Below, in pieces: positions 22,531 through 45,970 of a DNA stretch of 58,955 bases (within the stretch, counting starts at the first letter, position 1; each line of letters begins with the position of its first letter). The position numbers were made by a program, and so were the translations under genes. The stretch lies in the IMG/VR virus record IMGVR_UViG_3300043776_000546, positions 1 through 58,955 of that record; one strand, 5' to 3'. This DNA comes from a virus. The notes under the pieces were generated by a model that saw only the letters and a program-made list of their open reading frames with translations, searched no databases and was not told the DNA's origin.

Positions 22531-23319
22531 ATGCCGCACTTTTGTGTCAGTGACCTGCACGCTTGTGACAAGGGCCCGCGGGATGCGTTCGCCTTCCAGG
22601 ACCGGGAGGTGCGGTTCGGCAAGTTCCTTGACATGGTGGAGAACGAACACGGCCGGCTGCTGATCCTTGGCGATCTGCTCGATTTCTGGCAGGTTCCGGT
22701 TGGGGCTGCGATCGTGGCGCACCGCCTGCTGTTGGATCGGCTCGATGCAATGGGGGCGACCTGGATTGTGGGGAACCATGACAACGCCCTGGCCCCGCTG
22801 ATCGGCACGCCGCTGATGATCGACCACCCGCTGTTCCAGCGGTCCTGCCATCCGTTCGAGGAAACCATCGGCGGCCGGAGGTTTGCCTTCCTCCACGGCC
22901 ATGAAGCCGATCCGTACTGCTGCGAGCCGAATCCCGGCATCGGTGAAATCACGGCCATCATCAGTGGGATGCTGGAAGATCGCAACAAGAGCCCGTTCAC
23001 GCACAAGGGTCATGCGGTCGCCGACGAGTTTGTCGGCACGCTGGAGAGCGCCCTGACGCTGTGGAGGACGCTGACGTTCCAGCACGGTCGGCAGGCTGAG
23101 ATGGTCGAGGGCGTGGAGAAGTACCGCCAGGAAAAGCGGTGCGACGTAGTGGTCTACGGCCATACGCACGCCCCAGGTCGAATCGGCGACTACCACTTCA
23201 ACACCGGGTCGTGGGCCCGTCAAAACGACACCTATGTCAAGATCGAAGACGACGGCACCACCAACGTCTTGGAGTGGCTTGGAACATGGCCGAAGCCGTG
23301 CAACACGAAGCTGGGCTAG
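22531..23319 (+). CDS. Calcineurin-like (LpxH-type) metallophosphoesterase
   Basis: 262 residues. Metal motifs SDLHACD, ILGDLLDFW, IVGNHDN, LHGHEAD and VYGHTHAP follow the order of UDP-2,3-diacylglucosamine hydrolase and related phosphoesterases. Phage members of this group have varied or unknown substrates. The second phosphoesterase of the window (17701) is more distant and carries an HTH. The following ParB-like gene starts within its last 34 bases. Confidence 0.82.
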   Translation: MPHFCVSDLHACDKGPRDAFAFQDREVRFGKFLDMVENEHGRLLILGDLLDFWQVPVGAAIVAHRLLLDRLDAMGATWIVGNHDNALAPLIGTPLMIDHPLFQRSCHPFEETIGGRRFAFLHGHEADPYCCEPNPGIGEITAIISGMLEDRNKSPFTHKGHAVADEFVGTLESALTLWRTLTFQHGRQAEMVEGVEKYRQEKRCDVVVYGHTHAPGRIGDYHFNTGSWARQNDTYVKIEDDGTTNVLEWLGTWPKPCNTKLG

Positions 23320-24107
23320 ATCGCCTGCCGCAGTACGACGCCTACGCGGTGCCGATCGCCAGCATTTTCTACGACGAGAGTTTCAATTGCCGTGGTCCGT
23401 TCACGCTGCAATCCGTCGAGGACCTGGCGGCGAGCATCCGAGACAGCATCCTGCAATTCCCCGTAGTCGTCGAACCGTGGGACCGCGACAACTATGCCTA
23501 CCGTTTGCTGGCCGGGCACCGGCGCTTCGTCGCTGTGGCCCAAATCCTCAAATGGAAGACGATACCCGCAGGCGTCCGGCGCAACCTCACCGAGCGTCAG
23601 GCACGCATCCTGAACTTTACCGAGAACCTTGAACGCAAGGACCTGAACCCGTTGGAAGAGGCGCAGGCGCTAGGCCGCCTGTTTCCTGAAGGTGTGAGCC
23701 TGCGGACGGCCGCCGCCGAACTGAAGCGACCGACCCGCTGGGTCCATGACCGGCAACGGCTGCTGATGCTCCCCGCGGAGGTCCAGCAGCTTGCCGCCGC
23801 CGGACTGCTGGGCATGGTCCACGTCCAAGTCCTGCTGGCCCTGCCGCCGGACGAGCAGACCGTCGCCGCCCGCAAGATCGTGGACGCCAAGCGCGAGCAC
23901 GGCAAGACGGCCTCATTGAAGCACCTGGACCCGAAGTACCGCCGCAAGTTCGGCTATCGGAAGTCCAAGGCAGAGATCAACAACATGGTCGGCAAGATGC
24001 TGGGACGCGGCATCACGGGACTCGGGCCGCGGATGGGCGCATGGTGCGCGGGTTACATCAGCGATGCGGAACTGGAAGAAGACATTCAAGCGGCAACTCT
24101 GACGTGA
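23286..24107 (+). CDS. ParB/Spo0J-like protein
   Basis: 273 residues from ATG 23286. ParB blocks are VEDLAASIRDSILQFPVVV (helix 1), LLAGHRRFVAV (ParB GxRR box) and NFTENLERKDLNPLEEAQAL, the classical NxxRxDLxPxEEA block. An HTH-like segment follows (SLRTAAAELKRPTRWVHDR). It could partition a plasmid-like prophage or act as a regulator or nuclease. No ParA is visible in the window. It is more canonical than the ParB-like protein at 10622. Confidence 0.85.
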   Translation: MAEAVQHEAGLDRLPQYDAYAVPIASIFYDESFNCRGPFTLQSVEDLAASIRDSILQFPVVVEPWDRDNYAYRLLAGHRRFVAVAQILKWKTIPAGVRRNLTERQARILNFTENLERKDLNPLEEAQALGRLFPEGVSLRTAAAELKRPTRWVHDRQRLLMLPAEVQQLAAAGLLGMVHVQVLLALPPDEQTVAARKIVDAKREHGKTASLKHLDPKYRRKFGYRKSKAEINNMVGKMLGRGITGLGPRMGAWCAGYISDAELEEDIQAATLT

Positions 24108-24140
24108 GCACAACCGCTGATTGTAGGGGTGGAGCGTGAC

Positions 24141-24482
24141 ATGAAGACCTTGGCGGACAAGTTGCGACAAGAGCCCGGCATCGACGTGAAGCGGCTCAAG
24201 GTCGGTATGCGCCTGCTGGTGGAGACGGAGCAGGCTATTTATGAGATGCGCGTGCTACACCAGGGCTTGAGCCTGGTGGAAATCTCGTCAAGCGATCCCG
24301 TCCTGCGGCAACCTACCGTGGGGCAGTTCATCGGCAGTCAGCTTCCGCCCGCGTGCGCGGTCCCGAATTGGATCGGCAAGGGGCTGTCCATGCACCTCCG
24401 TTTTCGTAACGGGGACTACTTCTCGGCCCCTGTCCTCAGTGCAGAAGTGAAAGGCGACACCTGGCATTACGACCTGTTCTAG
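24141..24482 (+). CDS. Hypothetical protein
   Basis: 113 residues from ATG 24141, ggag six bases upstream. Beta-rich, no recognised motif. Confidence 0.5.
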   Translation: MKTLADKLRQEPGIDVKRLKVGMRLLVETEQAIYEMRVLHQGLSLVEISSSDPVLRQPTVGQFIGSQLPPACAVPNWIGKGLSMHLRFRNGDYFSAPVLSAEVKGDTWHYDLF

Positions 24483-24491
24483 GCAGCCGGA

Positions 24492-24614
24492 CTCCCGGCA
24501 TGTGCCCACCGGGCACTGAACCCATAACCGCACGGCGGGTGATTGGGGTGGCTACGCCTGAGCCGTAACAGTATCCGCAGGCCGGCGACCTGGGCGTCGT
24601 GCGACGGCCGGGAG
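24492..24614 (+). ncRNA. Candidate structured RNA 1
   Basis: The 166-base gap 24483-24648 contains an 8-bp closing stem (ctcccggc 24492-24499 with gccgggag 24607-24614). It encloses hairpins gtgccc-acc-gggcac (24502-24516), ggct/agcc and cgtcg-tg-cgacg. There is no coding signal. It may be a non-coding RNA or 5' leader of the next gene; GC-rich chance pairing is not excluded. Confidence 0.35.
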
Positions 24615-24648
24615 CCCTGCTGCTCAATCCCTTTTCTGGAGACTCTGT

Positions 24649-25116
24649 ATGTACCCTGCGTTGCTCTTGGTGCTGGTCGTGAGTTTGGCAGCCTTGGCTT
24701 TGATCGGCCGTTACCGCCGCGCGATGCGGGCGGCCCAGAACGAACTGTACGAAAGCCGGCAACAGACGCAACTCGCTCTGCGATGCGCCGAGGGCTACAA
24801 GCGGTTGCTTGCCGACGCCCGAGCGTTCTACGCAATGGATTCAGCCTGCGCGACGATGGAGCACCAGCGGCAATTGGGGGAGCAGGCCGTGAAGCATGAC
24901 GAGCAGGTCACAGCGCTGCTCGGTGAAATCGGCATGGCGGTCCTGGAAAGGATGCACGCGGAAACGCTGGCCGAAACCTGGAAGTCCTACGCCCTTGCCT
25001 ACGAAGTGCTCTGCGAGGCCGCGGCCGAAAAGGATTCCGCTGGGGCATCCAACGCCGGTGCCGCCGTTGCCGAGGCGCGCCGTATCCTTTCGGCCCTGGG
25101 TCAGTACGACGCATGA
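24649..25116 (+). CDS. N-terminal TM plus coiled-coil protein
   Basis: 155 residues. A hydrophobic segment (YPALLLVLVVSLAALALIG) is followed by a basic anchor and a long helical, coiled-coil-like region. This topology is like that of an inner-membrane spanin, but the gene sits beside the polymerase, not a lysis cassette. The ATGA junction couples it to the polymerase gene. Confidence 0.55.
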   Translation: MYPALLLVLVVSLAALALIGRYRRAMRAAQNELYESRQQTQLALRCAEGYKRLLADARAFYAMDSACATMEHQRQLGEQAVKHDEQVTALLGEIGMAVLERMHAETLAETWKSYALAYEVLCEAAAEKDSAGASNAGAAVAEARRILSALGQYDA

Positions 25117-27692
25117 GCAAGCTGTACATCGACTCTGAAACGTGCGGGCTGCACAGCATGATGGTGCTGTTGCAGTATGCGCAGGACGAGGGGCCGATCA
25201 ACCTCCATGAGGTCTGGCGGCGGCCAATCCGTGAGACGTTGCGCCTGATCGAATGGCTGTGCGAACACACGGTCGTGGGCTTCAACTTGTCGTTCGACTG
25301 GTTCCATATCGCCAAAATCTACACCATCTTCCGCCTTTGCAACCCGGACTGGATTCCGCGGGAGCACATCAACGAGATCGCCCTGCTGGAGCGCCGCGGG
25401 CAGGATGGGCCGTGCGTCAAGCCGGCCTGTGCCCTGGACCTGATGCTCCATTCCCGCAAGGGGCCGTACCAGTCGCTCATGGCCCGCGAGGACATCCGCA
25501 TCAAGCGGGTGCCTTCCGCGCTGGCCTACGCCCTCGCTTCTGAGTTGGAGGGCCGTGTCCAACTGGATAACATCTACTTTGCCAAGTCGGCTGACCCGAA
25601 CGCTCCCAAGTGGCAGGTCTTCGACCGCAAGGATCGCTACGGCGACATCGACACCGATTTCAAGGATGTCGTGTTGCGCTTCAACCCAGCCGGCGGCCTC
25701 AAGTTCCTCGCCGAACACGCGATGGGATTCAAGCCCAAGTTCCACTTCAAGGACGTTGAGCCTTCTACGGCTTGGCGGCCTTACGAGCTGGGCTATGCGC
25801 CCACGGCGTTGGCCGTTTCGTCGCCCGACAAGAATTGGGAGGTGTGGGGCAAGAAGAAGGGCAAGCGGGTCAAGGTGGCCGTCGAAGAGCAACTGACGGA
25901 CCCAGCCCTGAACCTGGACGACCCGCACGACGACGAGGAAGTGGTCCCCAAGAAGGCGAAGCCCAAGCCAGGCGATGATGTCTTGTTGGGATATGCCTGG
26001 CCCGGCGTGATCGACAAGCACATTGAGCACTGGGCCACGCGGCCGGACGCCCGCGAGTACGCCAACGATGACATCGTTTACACGCGGGCGCTCGACAAGC
26101 ACTTCGGCTGTCCGACGCCAGGCGACAACGACTCGACGCTGGCCTGCATGGTCCCGGTCGTCCGATGGCACGGCTTCTCCATCAACAAGGCCGGCATGGG
26201 CGAACTGCTCGCCAAGGCCGAGGCCGTGGTCGCCAACTCCCCGGTCAACATCAACAAGCCAGGTGAGGTCCGAGCCTACATCACGGCCGCAATGGACTCC
26301 ACCGAGACGATCATCCTCGAAGAGTCCACCAAGAAAAGCAATCTGGAGGCCATCAACAACTGGGAGATCGCGGCTCCCGAGCCCTGCGGCCGATGCGAAG
26401 GCAGGCCGGGCTGCGTCCGCTGCGGCGGCACGGGCACGATCCAGCCGGGCAAGCACCCGGCCGCCGTCCGGTCCAAGGCAATCCTGGACGTGAAGGTCGC
26501 CGCCAAGGAAGTGGAACTGTACAAGAAGCTGCTGCTGGCCGGCAAGTTCCACGCCAGCTTCGTCGTGATCGGCACGCTCTCAAGCCGCATGGCCGGGGCT
26601 GACGGCCTGAACCCGCAGGGCATCAAGCACGCCAAGGACGTGCGCAAGATGTTCCCGTTGTTCTGGGAGGACATGATCCTCTGCGGCGGCGACTTCGACT
26701 CGTTCGAGGTGACGATTGCCGACGCCGTGTACAACGATCCGGCCCTCCGCAAGGACCTGACCACCAAAGGCCCCTGCCCGAAGTGCGGCGGCACCGGTAT
26801 CGAAAAGAAGAAGGGCGGCCCTTGCGGCGAGTGCGAGACCACCGGCATGACGCCGCAGAAGCTCCATGCCCTGTTCGGCATGGCCCTGTCCGGTCTGTCC
26901 TATGCCGAGGTCATCAATTCCAGCGGCACGGAGAACGACTGGTACGACAAGGGCAAACGTGGCGTGTTCGCCCTGGTATACGGCGGCGACTGGAATACGC
27001 TGGTGCAGAAACTCGGTGTTACCGAGGCTCGGGCCAAGGCCGCCTACGCGGACTTCGTGAAGCGCTACCCCGGCATCGACAAGGCCCGCCGCAAGACCTT
27101 TGACGCCTTCTGCTCCATGCGGCAACCCGCAGGCATCGGGAGTGCGGTGGTCTGGGCAACGCCGGCCGAGTACATCGAAACCTTCCTCGGCTTCCGCCGC
27201 TACTTCAGTCTGGAAAACAAAATCTGCCAGGCCCTCTTCGACCTGGCCCGCAACCCGCCGAAGCATTGGCGAGCGTGCAAGGTCAAGGTGGTGCGGCGGG
27301 ATCGCGTGCAGACAGCCGGCGGGGCCGTCGCCAGCGCACTCTATGGTGCCGCATTCCAGATGCAGGCGGCCAACATGCGAGCGGCGGCCAACCACGAAAT
27401 CCAGAGCCCTGGTGCGGAAATTACGAAGTCTGTCCAGCGGCGGCTGTGGGACTTGCAGCCTGCGGGTGTCCATCCGTTGCGGCTTGCCCCGCTGAACGTC
27501 CACGATGAATTGATGGTCGTGGCGATGCACAGCATCGTCACCGCGATCACGGCCAATGTCCGCGAGGTCGTGGAATCCTTCCGCGGCCATGTCCCGCTGG
27601 TGGGCATGACCTGGTTCGAGGGAATGGACAACTGGGCCGAGAAGAAGGGCGGTGCCGCCCCGGTCAAGATTCGAGCCCCGGAGATGATGTAA
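25113..27692 (+). CDS. Family A DNA polymerase with zinc-ribbon insertions
   Basis: 859 residues. The 3'-5' exonuclease has Exo I YIDSET (Asp7, Glu9), Exo II FNLSFD (Asn58, Asp62) and Exo III YANDD (316-320). Polymerase motif A is GGDFDSFE (Asp527, Glu532), motif B KGKRGVFALVYGG (613-625) and motif C VHDE (797-799). Two Cys4 clusters are inserted: CGRCEGRPGCVRCGGTG (425-441) before motif A and CPKCGGTG with CGEC (555-574) between motifs A and B. These look like DnaJ-type zinc ribbons. An acidic/Lys-rich linker (about 260-290) separates Exo II from Exo III. It is the main phage replicative polymerase and is coupled to its neighbours by ATGA and TAATG overlaps. Confidence 0.93.
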   Translation: MSKLYIDSETCGLHSMMVLLQYAQDEGPINLHEVWRRPIRETLRLIEWLCEHTVVGFNLSFDWFHIAKIYTIFRLCNPDWIPREHINEIALLERRGQDGPCVKPACALDLMLHSRKGPYQSLMAREDIRIKRVPSALAYALASELEGRVQLDNIYFAKSADPNAPKWQVFDRKDRYGDIDTDFKDVVLRFNPAGGLKFLAEHAMGFKPKFHFKDVEPSTAWRPYELGYAPTALAVSSPDKNWEVWGKKKGKRVKVAVEEQLTDPALNLDDPHDDEEVVPKKAKPKPGDDVLLGYAWPGVIDKHIEHWATRPDAREYANDDIVYTRALDKHFGCPTPGDNDSTLACMVPVVRWHGFSINKAGMGELLAKAEAVVANSPVNINKPGEVRAYITAAMDSTETIILEESTKKSNLEAINNWEIAAPEPCGRCEGRPGCVRCGGTGTIQPGKHPAAVRSKAILDVKVAAKEVELYKKLLLAGKFHASFVVIGTLSSRMAGADGLNPQGIKHAKDVRKMFPLFWEDMILCGGDFDSFEVTIADAVYNDPALRKDLTTKGPCPKCGGTGIEKKKGGPCGECETTGMTPQKLHALFGMALSGLSYAEVINSSGTENDWYDKGKRGVFALVYGGDWNTLVQKLGVTEARAKAAYADFVKRYPGIDKARRKTFDAFCSMRQPAGIGSAVVWATPAEYIETFLGFRRYFSLENKICQALFDLARNPPKHWRACKVKVVRRDRVQTAGGAVASALYGAAFQMQAANMRAAANHEIQSPGAEITKSVQRRLWDLQPAGVHPLRLAPLNVHDELMVVAMHSIVTAITANVREVVESFRGHVPLVGMTWFEGMDNWAEKKGGAAPVKIRAPEMM

Positions 27693-28003
27693 TGCGCTAC
27701 ACAGACAGCTACGAGATCGAGTTCAAGACACCCGGCGGCGAGTGGGAAAGTGTGGGCCACGTCTATCCTCACTACGTCTGGCAGATCGTTTGCCCTTGGT
27801 ACTTCCTCGGGCTGGTCCGCTGGCCGCGGATTGTCAACGCGGCGGCTGTTGAAGACCTACAGGCGCGCCACACTGCCGTGATGGCAGCCGTAGCCTTTTG
27901 CCTGACGGGCCCGAGAACCTACTACCGCATCTGGCGATGGGAGCGTCGTGGCTGGCGGCTGCGACGGACGCTGGACGGCGGCTGGGAAGGCATGTTGCCG
28001 TGA
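27692..28003 (+). CDS. Hypothetical protein coupled to polymerase
   Basis: 103 residues rich in Trp and Tyr. Starts on the last base of the polymerase stop (TAATG) and ends in a GTGA junction with the nuclease gene. No domain recognised. Confidence 0.5.
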   Translation: MRYTDSYEIEFKTPGGEWESVGHVYPHYVWQIVCPWYFLGLVRWPRIVNAAAVEDLQARHTAVMAAVAFCLTGPRTYYRIWRWERRGWRLRRTLDGGWEGMLP

Positions 28004-28410
28004 AGAAGGTTTGCCGCCCGAAGCACGGCCCAGAATGGCATATCCAGAAGGACGTTATCAGGTATCTGATCGCCCGCGGCTGGCACGTTGAACACACCCA
28101 CGGCAATCTCTATCAGACCGGCTTTCCTGATCTGTTCGCGGCCCACAAGAAATGGGGCACCCGCTGGATCGACTGCAAGCAGCCGAAGAAGTACAGCTTC
28201 ACCAAAGCACAAAAACAGAAGTGGCCTCTGTGGGAGTCCTTTGGCATCGGAATCTGGATTCTGACGGCGGGCACCCAAGCGGAATACGACAAGTTGTTCA
28301 ACCTGCCGAATTGGCGTGCCTATTGGAAGGAGTCCTGGGGCCGGATTCCTACGCAGGCTGACATCGACCGGATGCTCGACGAGCTAGTGCGCGAAGGCCA
28401 ATCAGCCTGA
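28000..28410 (+). CDS. VRR-NUC-type PD-(D/E)XK nuclease
   Basis: 136 residues from GTG 28000 (GTGA overlap). PEWHIQKDVIRYLIARGW, GFPDLFAAHKKW and RWIDCKQPKKY carry the Glu, PD and D-x-K residues of a VRR-NUC/PD-(D/E)XK core (about 12, 43-44, 58-60). It is likely to cut branched or flap DNA during replication or recombination, consistent with its place after the polymerase. Confidence 0.78.
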   Translation: MKKVCRPKHGPEWHIQKDVIRYLIARGWHVEHTHGNLYQTGFPDLFAAHKKWGTRWIDCKQPKKYSFTKAQKQKWPLWESFGIGIWILTAGTQAEYDKLFNLPNWRAYWKESWGRIPTQADIDRMLDELVREGQSA

Positions 28411-28455
28411 TCTACCGCGCCAGCACACCGCTCAACCTTCAACTGCGGAGACGCT

Positions 28456-28935
28456 ATGCGCCTATTACGCAAGCCGGAACGCTGGATGTGTCTGCCGGCA
28501 TCCTTTGCGATAGTCCTGGATCTGCCGCTCAGCGACATCTTCAGGGAGATCGGCCACGACGGCAGCCAGATCATGTGGCCTGATCTGCTGGAGCCCACTT
28601 GTCGGCGCGCCTTTCACCCCCAGGAGTTGATCCACGTTTGCTTGAGTCACGGCCACGCTGCCACGCGAATCGAGTTGTTTCCCGTCCTGTGTCCGACGCC
28701 TAACGGCGGCAAGCACATTATCGACTACCCGGATGACAACTGGGTCCGCTTCACACGGGTCATTGATCTCAGCCGCGGCGTGATTGAAGGCGTCGGCCAG
28801 CGTTGCGGTCATGCGGTCGCCTATGAGTACGGGCACATCTTCGACCCGGATGGCCACGAGTACGACTACTCGCGCGAAGCCTGTGAGCAACGAGGCTTCT
28901 TCACACAGCATCTCTGGCGCATTGACAGGATTTGA
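28456..28935 (+). CDS. Peptidase C39-like (cysteine-protease-fold) protein
   Basis: 159 residues. WMCLPASFAIVLDLPL (Cys12), GHAVAYEYGHIFDPDG (His, then Asp) give the Cys-His-Asp layout of a papain/C39-like fold seen in many phage proteins. The substrate is unknown. A second protein of this kind is at 50613. A short 45-base gap precedes it. Confidence 0.55.
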   Translation: MRLLRKPERWMCLPASFAIVLDLPLSDIFREIGHDGSQIMWPDLLEPTCRRAFHPQELIHVCLSHGHAATRIELFPVLCPTPNGGKHIIDYPDDNWVRFTRVIDLSRGVIEGVGQRCGHAVAYEYGHIFDPDGHEYDYSREACEQRGFFTQHLWRIDRI

Positions 28936-28937
28936 GC

Positions 28938-29564
28938 ATGGCATCCAGTGTTGACCGGAATAACGAACTGTTCCCCTTGGTCGTCGCCGGGAATGCCGCA
29001 GCCCGCACGGCGCTGATCGACGAGAACATGGTTCTCGTGGTACTCAAAGCAGACTCGTTGATTAAGCAAGTCCCGAGCATCAGCTACCTCCGCGATGATT
29101 TGATTAGTGCAGGTTACATCGGTCTGGTGATTGCTGTCAATAAAGTGGCACAGGGCAGGATGACAAATGCGCGCGGCTTGAACTGCTACCTTGGTCGCTG
29201 TGTGCGGCGCGAAATGTTGGAATTGCTGCCGCACGAGCGGCCGATTCACGTCCCCAAACGATCTAGTGCTGTCGCCCGCAACCCGGCGAGTGTGTCCTGG
29301 AACGTGCAGCCAATTGAAATACCGGTGGTTGTGAACACCCTTCCTGACGGTCTCCAAACCGATTCACCCACCGCTGCCGTGGAGCTACGAGACATTTTTG
29401 CGGTGTGCTGCAAATCAGACCGGGAGCGCGAATGCCTGCGACTACGGGAAGAAGGCTACACGTTCGTGGAAATCGGTGAGCACCTGGGCATCGGCAAATC
29501 CCTGGCGCAACGGATATTCACCCGGCTACGCGCCCGCATCTATTCACACCTGGAAAAGCCATGA
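28938..29564 (+). CDS. Sigma-70-family RNA polymerase sigma factor
   Basis: 208 residues from ATG 28938. Region 2-like DLISAGYIGLVIAVNKV, an intervening region with basic patches (VPKRSSAVARN) and region 4-like RECLRLREEGYTFVEIGEHL with GIGKSLAQRIFTRLRARI. The layout fits a compact alternative (group 3/4-like) sigma factor. Phage sigma factors redirect host RNA polymerase to phage promoters. The five-copy motif ACTCTAA-N14-GTTGATTTAACTAWTAG is the obvious candidate target. It overlaps the next gene by ATGA. Confidence 0.82.
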   Translation: MASSVDRNNELFPLVVAGNAAARTALIDENMVLVVLKADSLIKQVPSISYLRDDLISAGYIGLVIAVNKVAQGRMTNARGLNCYLGRCVRREMLELLPHERPIHVPKRSSAVARNPASVSWNVQPIEIPVVVNTLPDGLQTDSPTAAVELRDIFAVCCKSDRERECLRLREEGYTFVEIGEHLGIGKSLAQRIFTRLRARIYSHLEKP

Positions 29565-30133
29565 TCCGACGCATCTTCTTGGACCTGGATGATACCTGCA
29601 ACACGCTGGCCATGCACGTCTTGTACTGCGTGGGTTGCCCGGTCAATCCCCGAGACTACCGGCAGCATCCTGTGGCCTTCGGCTACGAAATCCACGAGGC
29701 AGCCAATCATTTGCTCGGCCGTCCCAAGTTCGCCAACGCCGGCCAGTTCTGGTCCACCATCACCCGGACCGATTGGGCCGAGTGTCCCACCTCCGAAATC
29801 TTCCCGCGGATTCTGTTGCGGGCGGCCCGGCTGGTCGGGCGCGAGAACGTCTGCATTGCCACGGGCCCGACGAAATGCCCCGAGAGCCTATCCGGTAAGC
29901 TGGATTGGATTCACCGGGTCATGCCGCATTGGATGCACCGCCAATACGCAATCACGCCTCGCAAGCACCTCTTCGCCCGCCCGGACGCCCTGCTGATCGA
30001 CGATCTGGAAGCCAATCTGGATCGTTTCCAGGCTGGCGGTGGTCATGGCATCCTGGTGCCCCGGCCGTGGAACAGGCTACGGGGCGCGGACCCGTTCGAT
30101 GCGATCGATGGGCAACTGGAAAATCTTTTCTGA
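29561..30133 (+). CDS. HAD-like 5'(3')-deoxyribonucleotidase
   Basis: 190 residues. HAD motifs FLDLDDT (Asp8, Asp10), IATGP and the acidic ALLIDD are those of the NT5C-type deoxyribonucleotidase group. It would dephosphorylate dNMPs or 3'-phosphates. It could also trim 3' phosphates for the RNA or DNA ligases encoded downstream. It ends just before motif copy 2. Confidence 0.72.
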   Translation: MIRRIFLDLDDTCNTLAMHVLYCVGCPVNPRDYRQHPVAFGYEIHEAANHLLGRPKFANAGQFWSTITRTDWAECPTSEIFPRILLRAARLVGRENVCIATGPTKCPESLSGKLDWIHRVMPHWMHRQYAITPRKHLFARPDALLIDDLEANLDRFQAGGGHGILVPRPWNRLRGADPFDAIDGQLENLF

Positions 30134-30147
30134 TTTTCCACGGACTC

Positions 30148-30185
30148 ACTCTAATTTTGGCCCCCGGCGTTGATTTAACTAATAG
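30148..30185 (+). promoter_or_regulatory. Promoter-like motif, copy 2
   Basis: ACTCTAA, 14 bases, GTTGATTTAACTAATAG, in the gap 30134-30212. It heads the ligase block, 27 bases before the next ATG. Confidence 0.75.
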
Positions 30186-30212
30186 GCACCCATTTTGACC
30201 GGAGATCAAACG

Positions 30213-30392
30213 ATGCACGAAGTCGAGTTCATTCCCGCGGAATGGCTGGAACGCTCCCTGTGGGCGGCAATGCGCGGTCAGACGTTGCTTTGCTACAGCC
30301 GGCCGGTGATGGTCGAACGCCGCATCCAGACCCGGCGGACGGCCGACATGACATTGCTGATTCAATCCGCACTCTTGGCAAAGGCGGCATGA
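30213..30392 (+). CDS. Hypothetical small protein
   Basis: 59 residues from ATG 30213, ggag at eight bases upstream. No domain recognised. Its stop overlaps the ligase ATG (ATGA). Confidence 0.5.
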   Translation: MHEVEFIPAEWLERSLWAAMRGQTLLCYSRPVMVERRIQTRRTADMTLLIQSALLAKAA

Positions 30393-31543
30393 TGGCGCGA
30401 CGCGAATTCCTGCAACTGGCCGACCATTACGACCCATCCAAGAGTACGGTGGCCGGCTGGTTCATTTCCGAGAAACTCGACGGCACCCGTTGCTTCTGGG
30501 ACGGCGGCCTGTCCCGCGGACTGGCCACGGACACCATCCCTTGGGCCAGCATCATCGACCCGAAGACCGGCAAGCGAAAGGCGAAGATCAAGCCGGTGGC
30601 CACGGGGCTCTGGTCCCGCTACGGCAATCCGATCCTCGCCCCGGACACGTTCCTAAACCAGCTTCCGTGCTGTCCGCTCGACGGCGAGCTATGGGCCAGG
30701 CGGGGCAACTTCCAACTGTGCCGGTCGATCTGCGGTGGCGACGAGCCCGATCCCCGTTTCGAGAAGCAGATCGTCTATGCCGTCTACTCGGCCCCGCCGC
30801 TGGCAGCCGTGTTCGGCACGGGCGAGATCAAGAACACCAACATGGTGTGCAATCTCGACTACATCGGCATCGAGCAGTGGGTTCGCCGCCGGGTGGACGC
30901 ACTGGGTCGGGAGCCGGCCTGCGAGGGCGTGCCGATCCCGAAACGCTGCCTGGCCGACGACTACAAGTACCTGCCCCTGGGTGTGCCGTTCTCGGATGAA
31001 GTCCGCTTCCTGGCCGGCAACTTGGACAATGGCCCCGAGTCCAAGTGCTATCTCCATCCGCAAACGAAGTTGATCGACATTGCCGACGAGGCCGCCCAGC
31101 AGGTGGAGGCGTTCCTGCAACGGGTTCTGGACAAGGGCGGCGAAGGCGTCGTGATTCGCAATCCGAATGCCGTGTGGACGCCAAAGCGCCACAAGGGCCT
31201 GCTGAAATACAAGCCCTTCGAGGACGCCGAGGCCCGCATCATCGGCTTCACTTCCGGCCGCGAGACAACGAAGGGCAGCAAGCACCTCGGTCGGATTGGG
31301 GCGCTCATCACCGACTACAAGGGCAAGCGGCTCGAATTGTCCGGTTTGACCGACGCCGAGCGCGAGTTCTCGTCCAGCGAGATGGGCGTCTTCGCATCGG
31401 CCAACCCCGGCATGGACATGCCCGACTGGTTTCAGGGCCGTGCCTTCAAGAAGGGCCAGGCGGTCACGTTCAAGTACCGCGAGCTATCGGATGACGGCAT
31501 CCCGAAAGAGGCGCGGTACTGGCGACCGAGGGACGTGGAATGA
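30389..31543 (+). CDS. ATP-dependent DNA ligase
   Basis: 384 residues. Adenylation motif SEKLDGTR (Lys29), motif III-like LDGELW, motif IV GGEGVVIR and motif V LLKYKPFE, followed by an OB-type C-terminus. It seals nicked DNA during replication and repair. It is the second gene downstream of motif copy 2. It starts at ATG 30389 (ATGA overlap); a second ATG follows immediately. Confidence 0.9.
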   Translation: MMARREFLQLADHYDPSKSTVAGWFISEKLDGTRCFWDGGLSRGLATDTIPWASIIDPKTGKRKAKIKPVATGLWSRYGNPILAPDTFLNQLPCCPLDGELWARRGNFQLCRSICGGDEPDPRFEKQIVYAVYSAPPLAAVFGTGEIKNTNMVCNLDYIGIEQWVRRRVDALGREPACEGVPIPKRCLADDYKYLPLGVPFSDEVRFLAGNLDNGPESKCYLHPQTKLIDIADEAAQQVEAFLQRVLDKGGEGVVIRNPNAVWTPKRHKGLLKYKPFEDAEARIIGFTSGRETTKGSKHLGRIGALITDYKGKRLELSGLTDAEREFSSSEMGVFASANPGMDMPDWFQGRAFKKGQAVTFKYRELSDDGIPKEARYWRPRDVE

Positions 31544-32058
31544 AGACGGGTATCGGCAGTCACACCCGCGCCGTCCGGGGAGCAACCGACTGCTGGCTGA
31601 CGCCGCCGGAGGTCATCAGGGCACTGGCGCCTTTCGACCTTGACCCCTGTGCCGCTCCCGGCCAGCCGTGGACGACAGCAAAGCATCAGTACACCCCGCC
31701 GCAAGACGGCCTGCAACTGCCGTGGTTCGGCCGAGTGTGGCTTAATCCGCCCTATGGCCAACAGACAGGGCTGTGGTTGGATCGTCTGAGTCAGCACGGC
31801 AACGGAATCGCTTTGGTTTTCGCCCGAACCGAGACGGCAATGTTCTTTGAGCATGTCTGGAGCAAAGTCGCCGGAGTCCTGTTTCTGGAGGGCCGGTTGT
31901 ATTTCTGCCAACTGGACGGAACCAGGGCCAAAGGCAACGCTGGCGGGCCATCTGTGTTATTGGCCTACGGCGCGGAGAACGCCCAAGTGTTGCAGGGCTG
32001 CTCATTAGAGGGCGCGTACTGCACGACGATCGAGAGGCCGCGAAGGAAACAGCCATGA
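31540..32058 (+). CDS. Phage Dam-type N6-adenine methyltransferase
   Basis: 172 residues of the phage N-6-adenine methyltransferase family (Dam/PF05869 type): DCWLTPPEVIRAL, FDLDPCAAP and VWLNPPYG (Asn69-Pro-Pro-Tyr72). Third DNA methyltransferase of the window. ATGA overlap with the ligase gene and with the next gene. Confidence 0.85.
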   Translation: MKTGIGSHTRAVRGATDCWLTPPEVIRALAPFDLDPCAAPGQPWTTAKHQYTPPQDGLQLPWFGRVWLNPPYGQQTGLWLDRLSQHGNGIALVFARTETAMFFEHVWSKVAGVLFLEGRLYFCQLDGTRAKGNAGGPSVLLAYGAENAQVLQGCSLEGAYCTTIERPRRKQP

Positions 32059-32834
32059 CGAGTCGCACCTCAGTACCTTCAGCGAGAAAGCCACCAATGT
32101 CCGTCCGTAACCCGAAGCAGGAAGGCACGCCGTTCTGGGACTGTATCCCACAGGTTGGCCCATGCCCGATCGCCTGCGACCAGTGTTTCTACAACCGCCC
32201 CGGTGCGTACTACGTGCCCATCGACCGGCCGCACGTCCCAACAGGCACGGAGGTCGGCGATGGCATCGTGCGGATGAACTGCGGCAACGATTCCAACAAC
32301 CAGCGGGAGTTGGTGATCGAGACCGCCCAGCGGTACAAGCGGTTCTTCTTCAACACCAGCATCCCGCGATACGACTTCCCCGGCCCCGTCGTCCTGACGG
32401 CCAACCCGAAGGAGGAAGACGAGAGCAAGTACGCCATGCCGAACTGGCACATGGACGACTGGTACTCGCCGGCCGCAAACCTGATGTTCGTGCGGCTCCG
32501 CACGTCGGCCACCAACCTGCTCCTGGTGGACAAGGCCGTGGCAGCGTGGACGGCCGCCAAGGTGCCGTGCGTCATTACCTTCATGGCCTACTACGACCAT
32601 GAGCCGAACCTGCCGGCGGACCTGGCGTTCAAGGGCCAGTGCTACGAGTGGCGCGTGCGGCACATCAACTCGTACTGGTGCCCGACGAAAGAGTTCATGC
32701 GCTGGGTCATGCTTCGCTACGCCGGCAATCGCCTGGTGAGCATGTGCAGCAGCATTGGGTCCGCCTACTGCCGCGATTGCCGCAACTGCGAGACCCACTA
32801 CCTGCAAACCATGAAGAGGCTCCGCCGTGAGTAA
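32055..32834 (+). CDS. Radical-SAM-like protein
   Basis: 259 residues. CPIACDQC (Cys37, Cys41, Cys44) is a CX3CX2C motif as in radical SAM enzymes. A second set of Cys lies near the C-terminus (YCRDCRNC), which could hold an auxiliary cluster. The central alpha/beta strands fit a partial TIM barrel. The substrate is unknown; a nucleic-acid or nucleotide modification is plausible because it lies between a DNA methyltransferase and ligases. It is not the DUF5131/Gp37 type. The first ATG (32055) overlaps the previous stop; M15 is an alternative start. Confidence 0.6.
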   Translation: MTSRTSVPSARKPPMSVRNPKQEGTPFWDCIPQVGPCPIACDQCFYNRPGAYYVPIDRPHVPTGTEVGDGIVRMNCGNDSNNQRELVIETAQRYKRFFFNTSIPRYDFPGPVVLTANPKEEDESKYAMPNWHMDDWYSPAANLMFVRLRTSATNLLLVDKAVAAWTAAKVPCVITFMAYYDHEPNLPADLAFKGQCYEWRVRHINSYWCPTKEFMRWVMLRYAGNRLVSMCSSIGSAYCRDCRNCETHYLQTMKRLRRE

Positions 32835-32982
32835 CGGGCTCGTCACCATCACCATCGCTGGCCTGGTGGCAGGTGTCGTCATCACGATCACCGCCCCGCC
32901 GGTCGCGGCCGTCCTCATGGTCGGCTGGATTTCCACTGTCTGGCTGATCGGCTACCTGATCCTCAAGAAGCAAGGGGGTTGA
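32827..32982 (+). CDS. Small membrane protein, one or two TM
   Basis: 51 residues, GTG start inside the end of the radical-SAM gene. Hydrophobic stretches at about 5-20 and 28-46, ending LKKQGG. A small phage membrane protein; role unknown. Confidence 0.55.
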   Translation: MSNGLVTITIAGLVAGVVITITAPPVAAVLMVGWISTVWLIGYLILKKQGG

Positions 32983-32985
32983 ACA

Positions 32986-33210
32986 ATGGCGTCCGCGCAA
33001 CAGAACCGCGACTTCACCACGGCCGTCGTTAGCCAGTATCCGCTGGACGAGGCCATCGACTGGATTCGCAGCAACATGGAGCCGGAGGACGTGTTCGAGC
33101 CCGAGACGCTCTTGGCCTGGGCCAAGGAGAACGCCCCCAGCCCCGAGGAAGTCTGCTCGCAGCGGGACCTGGAGAACTGGGCCGAAGAGAACGGCTTCAC
33201 CCAAGCATGA
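32986..33210 (+). CDS. Hypothetical small acidic phage protein
   Basis: 74 residues, acidic, ending LENWAEENGF. This kind of small protein (AIDWIRSNMEPEDVF) is familiar from phage early regions, but function is unknown. ATGA overlap with the next gene. Confidence 0.55.
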   Translation: MASAQQNRDFTTAVVSQYPLDEAIDWIRSNMEPEDVFEPETLLAWAKENAPSPEEVCSQRDLENWAEENGFTQA

Positions 33211-33386
33211 ACCTTCAGGCCGCAGTGAAACAGATCGACACGACGCTCGGCGAGGGTTACGCCAAGGCGCACCCCGAGCTTCTGGCCGCCTACGTGGTGG
33301 CGGACGCGCTGACCGAGATCGACAAAACGCTGGTCGAGACCGCCCAGACCATCGCCGACCTGGCCAAGCGATTCAGCCTCTTCTAA
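33207..33386 (+). CDS. Hypothetical helical protein
   Basis: 59 residues, ATG overlapping the previous stop, helical throughout. No domain recognised. Confidence 0.5.
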   Translation: MNLQAAVKQIDTTLGEGYAKAHPELLAAYVVADALTEIDKTLVETAQTIADLAKRFSLF

Positions 33387-33398
33387 GGGATTCCCTGC

Positions 33399-34508
33399 AT
33401 GTCCGACATCACGGTCACGATCCAAACTATCAGCAGTATTGTCCCACATCCAAATGCGGACAAGCTGGAGATCGCCACCATTCTCGGCACCCAGACGATC
33501 GTGCCCAAGGGGCAGTACAGGGTCGGCGAGCCGGTGGTCTACTTCCCGCCGGACATCTGCCTGCCCGAAGACGAAGCCAACTGGCTGGGCGTGTTCAAGT
33601 ATCTCAAGTCGGGCGGCCGGGTGGCGGCCTGCCGGCTGCGCGGCGTCCCATCCTACGGCTTCGTGGCCCCGGTGCCTCCGCGCTTGGCCAGCATGGTCGA
33701 TCATGCCGACGCCGACTTGACGGAGCACTATCACGCTTGGAAGTACGAGCCGCCCGTGCGGGTCTACCGCGGCCACGGCGGCGGCACGGGCGAGGTGTGG
33801 GGCGGCCTGGCCCGCGAGCCGGAGAACTTCCACCACTACACCGACATCCAGGCGTTCTGGAAACACCACCGCGAGTTCACCGCCGACGTGCCGGTGCGGG
33901 TGACGGAGAAGATTCACGGCACTAACAGCCGCGTGGCCCTGCTCAAGGTTGATGACGAATGGGACTTCTACGCCGGCAGCCATAAGAAGTGCCGCCGGTG
34001 GCATGACACCGAGGGGCGTGATTCCGTCTACTGGCATCCGTTCAACATCCCGGGCGTCATGGACCTGCTCACTGAGTTGTGCAACTGCAATGACGACCCG
34101 ACCAGGGACGTGATCCTCTTCGGCGAACTGTTCGGCCCCGGCGTCCAGGACCTTGACTACGGGATTCCTGCGGGTGAGATCGGCTGGCGGTGCTACGACT
34201 GCTCGGTCAACGGTTGCTATCTCGATTGGCCCGTCCTCGTCGCCTACTGCATTGCCTTCGGCGTGCAGACGGTCCCCGTGCTCTACACCGGCCGGTTCAA
34301 GGCTGACTTGGTGGAGGAGTGGACCAACGGCCCGACGATCGCCGTGGACCCGGCCACTGTCAAGGCCAAGTTCAAGGGCCGCGAAGGCTGCGTGATTACC
34401 CCGCTCACTGAGACCTACAGCAAGGCTCTCGGCGGACGGCTGATTCTCAAGAGCGTGTCGGCGGACTACCGCGACCGGAAAGGGGCAAGAGATGAAGGCG
34501 AACTGTAA
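33399..34508 (+). CDS. RNA ligase, Rnl5/DraRnl-like
   Basis: 369 residues. An N-terminal domain (IVPHPNADKLEIATILG) is followed by the adenylyltransferase: VTEKIHGTNSR (Lys171 of KxxG), LFGELFG, REGCVITP and LILKSVS. It resembles the DRB0094 (Rnl5) type, which has an N-terminal OB-like module and seals nicks with 3'-RNA. With a phage tRNA-Asn and several nucleases nearby, it may repair RNA damaged by host anticodon nucleases. Its end overlaps the next gene by 17 bases. Confidence 0.85.
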   Translation: MSDITVTIQTISSIVPHPNADKLEIATILGTQTIVPKGQYRVGEPVVYFPPDICLPEDEANWLGVFKYLKSGGRVAACRLRGVPSYGFVAPVPPRLASMVDHADADLTEHYHAWKYEPPVRVYRGHGGGTGEVWGGLAREPENFHHYTDIQAFWKHHREFTADVPVRVTEKIHGTNSRVALLKVDDEWDFYAGSHKKCRRWHDTEGRDSVYWHPFNIPGVMDLLTELCNCNDDPTRDVILFGELFGPGVQDLDYGIPAGEIGWRCYDCSVNGCYLDWPVLVAYCIAFGVQTVPVLYTGRFKADLVEEWTNGPTIAVDPATVKAKFKGREGCVITPLTETYSKALGGRLILKSVSADYRDRKGARDEGEL

Positions 34509-44803: not shown

Positions 44804-45630
44804 TGCAATTCGTCCGCAAGAAGAAGCGTGGCGTCAACCACAAGGTTGCCCGGATGTGGTTCTCGAAGGAGGGCTACCGGATTACCTGGCGTAAGGAAGC
44901 CTTCGGCATTCGCGTGCCCGCGCGCTTCAAGGCGTGCGTCCGCGTGATGGTCCCCAACTACAGCGGCGAACATGGAACGTCGCGGGAGGTGTGGGACTTC
45001 CTCGGCAAGCCCCGTTTGTACAAGACGATGAATGCCGCCAAGGAGGATTGCGAACGGCACCTGCAATTATGGACGAAGGCGTGCGAGGCCACCGGCGTTC
45101 GGGGGCTGCTCGACGTGTTCGGCAAGCTGCCGGTAGTGATTCCCCTTTGGGCGCGAAAGAAGCTGAACCGCAAGGCACTGGCCATTTTGCTCGCTCCCAA
45201 TACCAATGACCGCGCGGAGGAAGATGACGAATGCCCCGAGAGTTCATCACCGGCTGGCGGCGAACCGAACCGAAGCGAAGCTGCCGCAGCCTCGCCGATT
45301 TCCGACGCCAACTCTTCCTCTGGAAGCCCGCGGCCTGGGTCGCCGCCAACCCCGACAAGTGGCCCTGCCTCGCCTGCCGAGGACGGGGATGGAACTACGA
45401 CCCCACGGACCCGCCGTGCCCGATCGAAGGCAACCGCTCACGACGAACCCTGGAATGTGCCACTTGCGGAGGAAGCGGCTGCGGCCCCCGCAAAGCAGTC
45501 GCGGAAGCGTACCGCCAACTCGTCGAAGCGTTCAAGACCGAGAAAGCCGACTACGACCGGCTCGTCAAAGTCTACAAAGCGGCGATCAAGAGGCTCACGG
45601 TCAAGCAAATCCGAGCCCTCAAAGAACTAG
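44803..45630 (+). CDS. Basic protein with disordered tail overprinted on next gene
   Basis: 275 residues. The N-terminal 140 residues are ordered (GYRITWRKEAFGIRVPARFK, VWDFLGKPRLYKTMNAAKED). From about residue 143 the tail is Ser/Pro/Arg/Lys-rich and has almost the whole of the 45231 gene in another frame beneath it. The tail has no stop, so if the gene is real it is translated. The composition of the tail suits overprinting. Confidence 0.6.
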   Translation: MQFVRKKKRGVNHKVARMWFSKEGYRITWRKEAFGIRVPARFKACVRVMVPNYSGEHGTSREVWDFLGKPRLYKTMNAAKEDCERHLQLWTKACEATGVRGLLDVFGKLPVVIPLWARKKLNRKALAILLAPNTNDRAEEDDECPESSSPAGGEPNRSEAAAASPISDANSSSGSPRPGSPPTPTSGPASPAEDGDGTTTPRTRRARSKATAHDEPWNVPLAEEAAAAPAKQSRKRTANSSKRSRPRKPTTTGSSKSTKRRSRGSRSSKSEPSKN

Positions 45631-45638
45631 GAATCTGA
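45231..45638 (+). CDS. DnaJ-like zinc-finger protein
   Basis: 135 residues. CLACRGRGWNYD, CPIEG and ECATCGGSGCGP form CxxCxGxG-type zinc ribbons as in DnaJ. A long helical C-terminus (QLVEAFKTEKADYDRLVKVY) follows. It overlaps the previous gene in another frame for about 400 bases, and similar Cys modules occur in the polymerase and SNF2 helicase. Confidence 0.7.
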   Translation: MPREFITGWRRTEPKRSCRSLADFRRQLFLWKPAAWVAANPDKWPCLACRGRGWNYDPTDPPCPIEGNRSRRTLECATCGGSGCGPRKAVAEAYRQLVEAFKTEKADYDRLVKVYKAAIKRLTVKQIRALKELGI

Positions 45639-45640
45639 CG

Positions 45641-45970
45641 ATGGGAAAAGCCCTCGCACGACAGACCGACAACCGCGTGAGCATGGAAACCGCCACCAGC
45701 CTTAGCGGCCGGCGAGCGGAAATGGCCGCCCGCAAGCGAGCATTCCTTGCCGGCGACGAACACAGCCAAGGCAACCTAGCGGCCCTGCGTGAGAAGTTGC
45801 GGTCCGCGGACAAGGCCACGACCATCGCCACCCTCCACAAGATCGCGGACCAACACGGCCCGATGGAATACGACCGCGCCCTGAAACTTATCAACCCGAC
45901 TTACCGCGGCATGGACGTGATCCCCGAGAAGATCGCCGACATGAAGAGCATGAAGAAAGGAAAGAGGTGA
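45641..45970 (+). CDS. Small phage paralogue family protein, copy A
   Basis: 109 residues from ATG 45641. Begins MGKALARQTDNRV and has LREKLRSADKATT ... HKIADQHGPMEYDRALKLIN ... TYRG, matching the next gene and the N-terminus of the 43917 gene. Ends in a basic tail (KSMKKGKR). Confidence 0.6.
   Translation: MGKALARQTDNRVSMETATSLSGRRAEMAARKRAFLAGDEHSQGNLAALREKLRSADKATTIATLHKIADQHGPMEYDRALKLINPTYRGMDVIPEKIADMKSMKKGKR

Follow-up and report, generated by a model that had tools for sequence, protein, structure and literature searches.

The family A DNA polymerase encoded in the window, the stretch of 58,955 bases from an IMG/VR virus record analysed here, carries two four-cysteine clusters that would form small DnaJ-type zinc hairpins inserted into a Pol I core, the first at the thumb tip (site 1), the second where palm and fingers join (site 2). 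We put the probability at about 50% that these are zinc hairpins at the two positions, that site 1 is a docking loop, and that forms of the enzyme with a J-domain in this loop recruit DnaK. That the clusters exist is confirmed, and published work accounts for them only in part: site 1 varies a known theme, and site 2 adds another insert of the zinc type elsewhere in the enzyme. The J-domain found within the polymerase of some relatives is the surprising part.

The polymerase gene (25113..27692, + strand) encodes 859 aa comprising a 3'-5' exonuclease and a polymerase, without a 5'-3' exonuclease. The protein matches DNA_pol_A in Pfam (PF00476, E 4.7e-14) and the DNA polymerase family phrog_17 in PHROGs (5.6e-25). 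Motifs A, B and C with their catalytic Asp/Glu residues are all present, as expected of a family A member. The exonuclease motifs D7/E9 (Exo I), N58/D62 (Exo II) and Y316/D320 (Exo III), at 25131..26072 (+), were scored as invariant in the compared relatives, each of the six residues being kept in all or all but 1-2 of 80 rows. By alignment and conservation, motif A runs from D527 to E532 (26691..26708, +) and motif B, the O helix, from K615 to G624 (26955..26984, +), with F619 aligned to the position of Pol I F762; motif C, H797-D798-E799, lies at 27501..27509 (+) and was placed by conservation. The polymerase residues D527, E532, K615, F619, Y623, H797, D798 and E799 are likewise kept in all or all but 1-2 of 80 rows. 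Since the exonuclease and polymerase residues are conserved across the compared rows, the gene product looks like an intact DNA polymerase of family A with a proofreading exonuclease.

The AlphaFold2 model of the window protein is of moderate confidence (mean pLDDT 73.7, pTM 0.71), and that of the polymerase of the J-bearing relative L010 has a mean pLDDT of 72.8. Structural neighbours of the models are Pol I enzymes, the best being phage G20c Pol I (7r0k; Z 17.7, 546 aligned, rmsd 4.5), and the window enzyme shares its exonuclease and polymerase fold with this protein and with bacterial Pol I (Klenow fragments). Only polymerases appeared among the matches listed in the structure searches, which matched neither insert to any fold. 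Genes around the polymerase (22531-34508, +), all on the same strand, include those for a ParB-like protein, a sigma-70 region 4-like protein, an NT5C-like nucleotidase, an ATP-dependent DNA ligase, a Dam-like methyltransferase and an RNA ligase.

The earlier note on this sequence had placed Cys4 clusters at C425-C437 and C555-C574, and the translation of 25113-27692 contains them exactly there. Cluster 1 (CGRCEGRPGCVRCGGTG) comprises C425, C428, C434 and C437, and cluster 2 (CPKCGGTGIEKKKGGPCGEC) comprises C555, C558, C571 and C574. Two CxxC-CxxC clusters arose in 0 of 20,000 shuffles of the polymerase, while 89 shuffles gave at least one; a chance origin of the pair is thereby ruled out. Also as the note had it, cluster 2 lies between catalytic motifs, with motif A (D527...E532) before it and the O helix (K615...Y623) after it. 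In the window model both clusters have pLDDT values of 80-87 and are flanked by short strands. Judged from sequence, the clusters fit two structural zinc sites, each of which would bind one zinc through its four cysteines.

The label "DnaJ-type" given to the clusters holds at the level of the motif, with sub-threshold support from relatives, but no DnaJ Pfam model matches the window protein. PF00684 gives no match there up to E 1, and in relatives it matches site 2 at E 1e-4 to 1e-2, below the curated cut-off (best score at most 23 bits against 32.7). The window enzyme shares CxxCxGxG-type motifs with type I Hsp40/DnaJ proteins, although of the two CxxC pairs at its site 1 only one forms a full CXXCXGXG. 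The DnaJ central domain has four motifs, whereas the window enzyme has a single zinc unit per site.

To follow the clusters across the family, 88 related polymerases were gathered from IMG/VR and from genome contigs, giving a comparison set of 89 rows including the window, 81 of them distinct at 97%. Across these 81 the two clusters behave as units. Site 1 is present in 75/81, and its four cysteines are kept or lost jointly, almost without exception: loops of at most 15 residues have 0-1 Cys, and those of at least 26 residues have at least 3 and nearly always 4 or more. Site 2 occurs in 22/81 and is two-state, with either 7 residues and 0-1 Cys (63 rows) or 28-61 residues and at least 4 Cys (26 rows). 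The expectation that relatives would keep the cysteines is thus borne out for site 1, and for site 2 in close relatives but not in most of the wider family.

Site 1 (26385..26423, +; pLDDT 80-87) lies between the ST..NLE helix, the equivalent of Pol I helix H2, and helix I. By alignment, it follows "STKKSNLEAI" and precedes helix I, where H2 and I are names that we take from general knowledge of Pol I. In the insert-free relatives L138 and L157, "STKR/STKK...LE.I..W" runs almost directly into "HPAA..A..VL.AR", and the latter aligns with "PSTSEEVLEELALDYPLPKVILEYR" of E. coli Pol I. Because the insert-free relatives and E. coli Pol I fix the register, the alignment places site 1 in the loop between the thumb helices H2 and I, i.e., at the thumb tip. 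The loop takes three forms: one zinc-type hairpin, as in the window; two in tandem (four CxxC pairs), as in many family members; or a J-domain between the CxxC pairs, as in five relatives. Site 1 thus looks like an insertion-tolerant docking loop at the thumb tip, comparable to the thioredoxin-binding insert of T7.

Site 2 (about residues 551-580; 26763..26852, +) was located by alignment, and the AlphaFold2 model has strands at 552-554 and 579-581 (pLDDT 80-84). Its insertion point corresponds to "AEG|KDIH" of E. coli Pol I, between motif A and the O helix. Neither Cys4 insert is present in E. coli Pol I, and 7r0k has no insert over the stretch aligned to site 2. On the tree site 2 is patchy, with 9 changes, of which at least 5 are forced, counting carriers without a J-domain. 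Most likely, though we put this forward tentatively, it serves as a rigid element close to the fingers, either structural or in contact with DNA. The site-2 inserts of L006 and L007 have eight cysteines rather than four, and similar enlarged inserts are present in L026, L038, L118 and L158.

In L005 (with its near-copy L009), L008, L010, L034 and L040, the CxxC pairs of site 1 enclose a complete J-domain of about 60 residues. These are five distinct sequences from two polymerase clades, and PF00226 matches three of them at E 1.3e-11 to 8.5e-11 and the other two at 1.5e-8 and 8.8e-8, with scores of 32.6-44.9 bits against a cut-off of 27.8. The J-domain helices of the L010 model reach pLDDT 88-91 over the core. 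The closest solved chains are DnaJ proteins, with a weak sequence match to SV40 T antigen (1gh6). Viral J-domains are already known from the large T antigen of SV40, which carries one at its N-terminus on a helicase, and from phage RB43, whose protein Rki binds host DnaK (PMC3486835). Rki is not a polymerase, however, and unlike in Hsp40 the J-domain of the relatives is nested in a cysteine cluster inside a polymerase. In a literature search that covered few subscription journals, no DNA polymerase with an internal J-domain was found to be described. PF00226 has no match in the window, and the 25 related records contain no other J-domain and no HSP70 gene, so that any DnaK partner would be the host's. 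The L008 polymerase (L008:6001-8139) is missing some 200 residues, motif B among them; the gap is in frame and adjoins motif C, and either a true deletion or an error of assembly could explain it.

The copies of the J-domain share 45-64% pairwise identity, and the HPD motif and other J-domain residues are invariant in them. Where computable, their dN is 0.17-0.31 against a dS of about 1-3, and with dN well below dS the copies fit purifying selection. Divergence of the J-domain does not track that of the polymerase: by J-domain dN, L010 is nearer to L034 (0.18) than to L005 (0.31), whereas in the polymerase core L010 and L005 are much closer (0.07 vs 0.21). GC3 is lower in the J insert (0.56-0.72) than in the rest of the gene (0.80-0.86) in all five, and the J-domain changes 4 times on the tree, at least 2 of the changes being forced. 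Taken together, the discordant divergence, the lower GC3 and these tree changes point to repeated acquisition or exchange of J-domains. No donor was found, the IMG/VR J-domain proteins examined being other phage proteins and not polymerases; J profile matches occur in open frames in 40 of 79 Planctomycetota genomes.

We then propose a model in which the Pol I core has gained two small zinc hairpins of the DnaJ type, at the thumb tip and at the palm-fingers junction. Each would bind one zinc through four cysteines, and each is kept or lost as a unit. The insert at site 1 most likely serves to keep a partner protein or the primer-template bound to the thumb, much as T7 does with thioredoxin, and the window enzyme would use the plain short zinc form of this loop. 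Where a J-domain is present, it would draw host DnaK/Hsp70 to the polymerase and aid assembly, release or recycling; such recruitment of host DnaK is probable. The earlier proposal that the clusters recruit partners is strengthened by the J-domains in the site-1 loop, with binding itself an inference. As the earlier note also suggested, the clusters could instead sense features of the template, on which the data speak neither way. It is tempting to speculate further that the thumb tip is a swappable Hsp40-like docking module in an uncultured phage lineage and that the replisome of the J-forms recruits DnaK directly, a wider reading to which we give somewhat less than an even chance.

The docking or processivity role of site 1 is read from its position and from analogy with T7, in which the thumb-region insert of gp5 recruits host thioredoxin (PMC8867116). 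Both enzymes are phage family A polymerases with a thumb-region insert, but T7 lacks a Cys4 zinc hairpin and no sequence relation is seen. The thioredoxin-binding insert of T7 is located between helices H and H1, and we read it as a third thumb loop put to use, beside those of the window family and of HMO-2011. Lambda replication needs host DnaJ and DnaK. If the model is true, the J-bearing enzyme would have its own co-chaperone built in, joining this theme and the thumb-insert theme of T7 in one enzyme. The Pol I thumb tip would then be shown to be used for inserts in at least 3 different loops, and the J-bearing polymerases would allow a direct test of Hsp70 acting on a working replicative polymerase.

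The inserts had been called atypical of such enzymes, and they are indeed absent from the alignments of E. coli Pol I and T7 gp5, but comparable ones are published in HMO-2011-type phages (Puniceispirillum phage HMO-2011, CRP roseophages and pelagiphage HTVC033P), whose polymerases carry, between their exonuclease and polymerase domains, a partial DnaJ central domain with two CXXCXGXG motifs (PMC9038755, PMC6918029). Like the window enzyme, these are phage polymerases of family A in which a DnaJ-like Cys4 cluster lies between the exonuclease part and the polymerase part, and the similar motif in the same thumb region (PMC9038755) would be accounted for if site 1 were the HMO-2011-type insertion, inherited from a common ancestor. 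We regard this as improbable. The cluster of HMO-2011 and five relatives lies before "GFSTSKTNLELLES" (ST..NLE.L), the equivalent of H2, while that of the window family follows this helix; the two clusters therefore look as if they had been inserted independently into adjacent thumb loops. When first aligned jointly, they fell in partly shared columns, which we judge to be driven by the cysteines, because the insert-free relatives fix the helix register. In addition, the window protein has no tblastn match at 1e-5 among GenBank phages, a collection that includes HMO-2011. Helix order and this null result together disfavour direct inheritance from HMO-2011-type polymerases. HMO-2011 also differs in having no site-2 cluster in the alignment, and no J-domain is reported for the HMO-2011-type group.

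A stronger rival, though still an unlikely one, is that the hairpins are structural staples, in which zinc takes the place of a hydrophobic core in two loops at the surface, without recruiting a partner or affecting processivity. Small zinc knuckles often act as stabilisers, and polymerases that lack site 2 (most of the family) or site 1 (a few members) still keep their catalytic motifs; but the loops are optional on a Pol I core that can dispense with them, and site 1 is kept in 75 of 81 relatives, often doubled and in five relatives host to a J-domain. Alternatively, the CxxC pairs could act as a redox switch, tuning the polymerase or binding a protein akin to thioredoxin, as T7 polymerase uses host thioredoxin (PMC8867116). 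The four-cysteine units, the C.G.G-type glycines, the doubled arrays and the all-or-none loss are better explained by zinc, leaving a redox switch very improbable. For the J-domains, the patchy distribution and a GC3 typical of acquired DNA would also suit passive hitch-hikers without DnaK function. We consider this rather unlikely, given the invariant HPD and other J-domain residues in five divergent copies, the low dN relative to dS, and the identical site and frame of the J-domains in contigs from different metagenomes. Docking at site 1, with recruitment of DnaK by the J-bearing forms, is our preferred reading.

Five of the related polymerases (L159-L163) come from genome contigs, in bins called Planctomycetota (four) and Anaerolinea (one). 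These bins are a lead to a possible host only, as bins can hold stray phage contigs; among 392 Planctomycetota genomes sampled, the polymerase was found in 1, the genome used as the search centre. Elsewhere in the window, a 254-aa open reading frame without a Pfam match (45206-45970, +) carries two more CxxCxGxG motifs, at 45366 and 45456.
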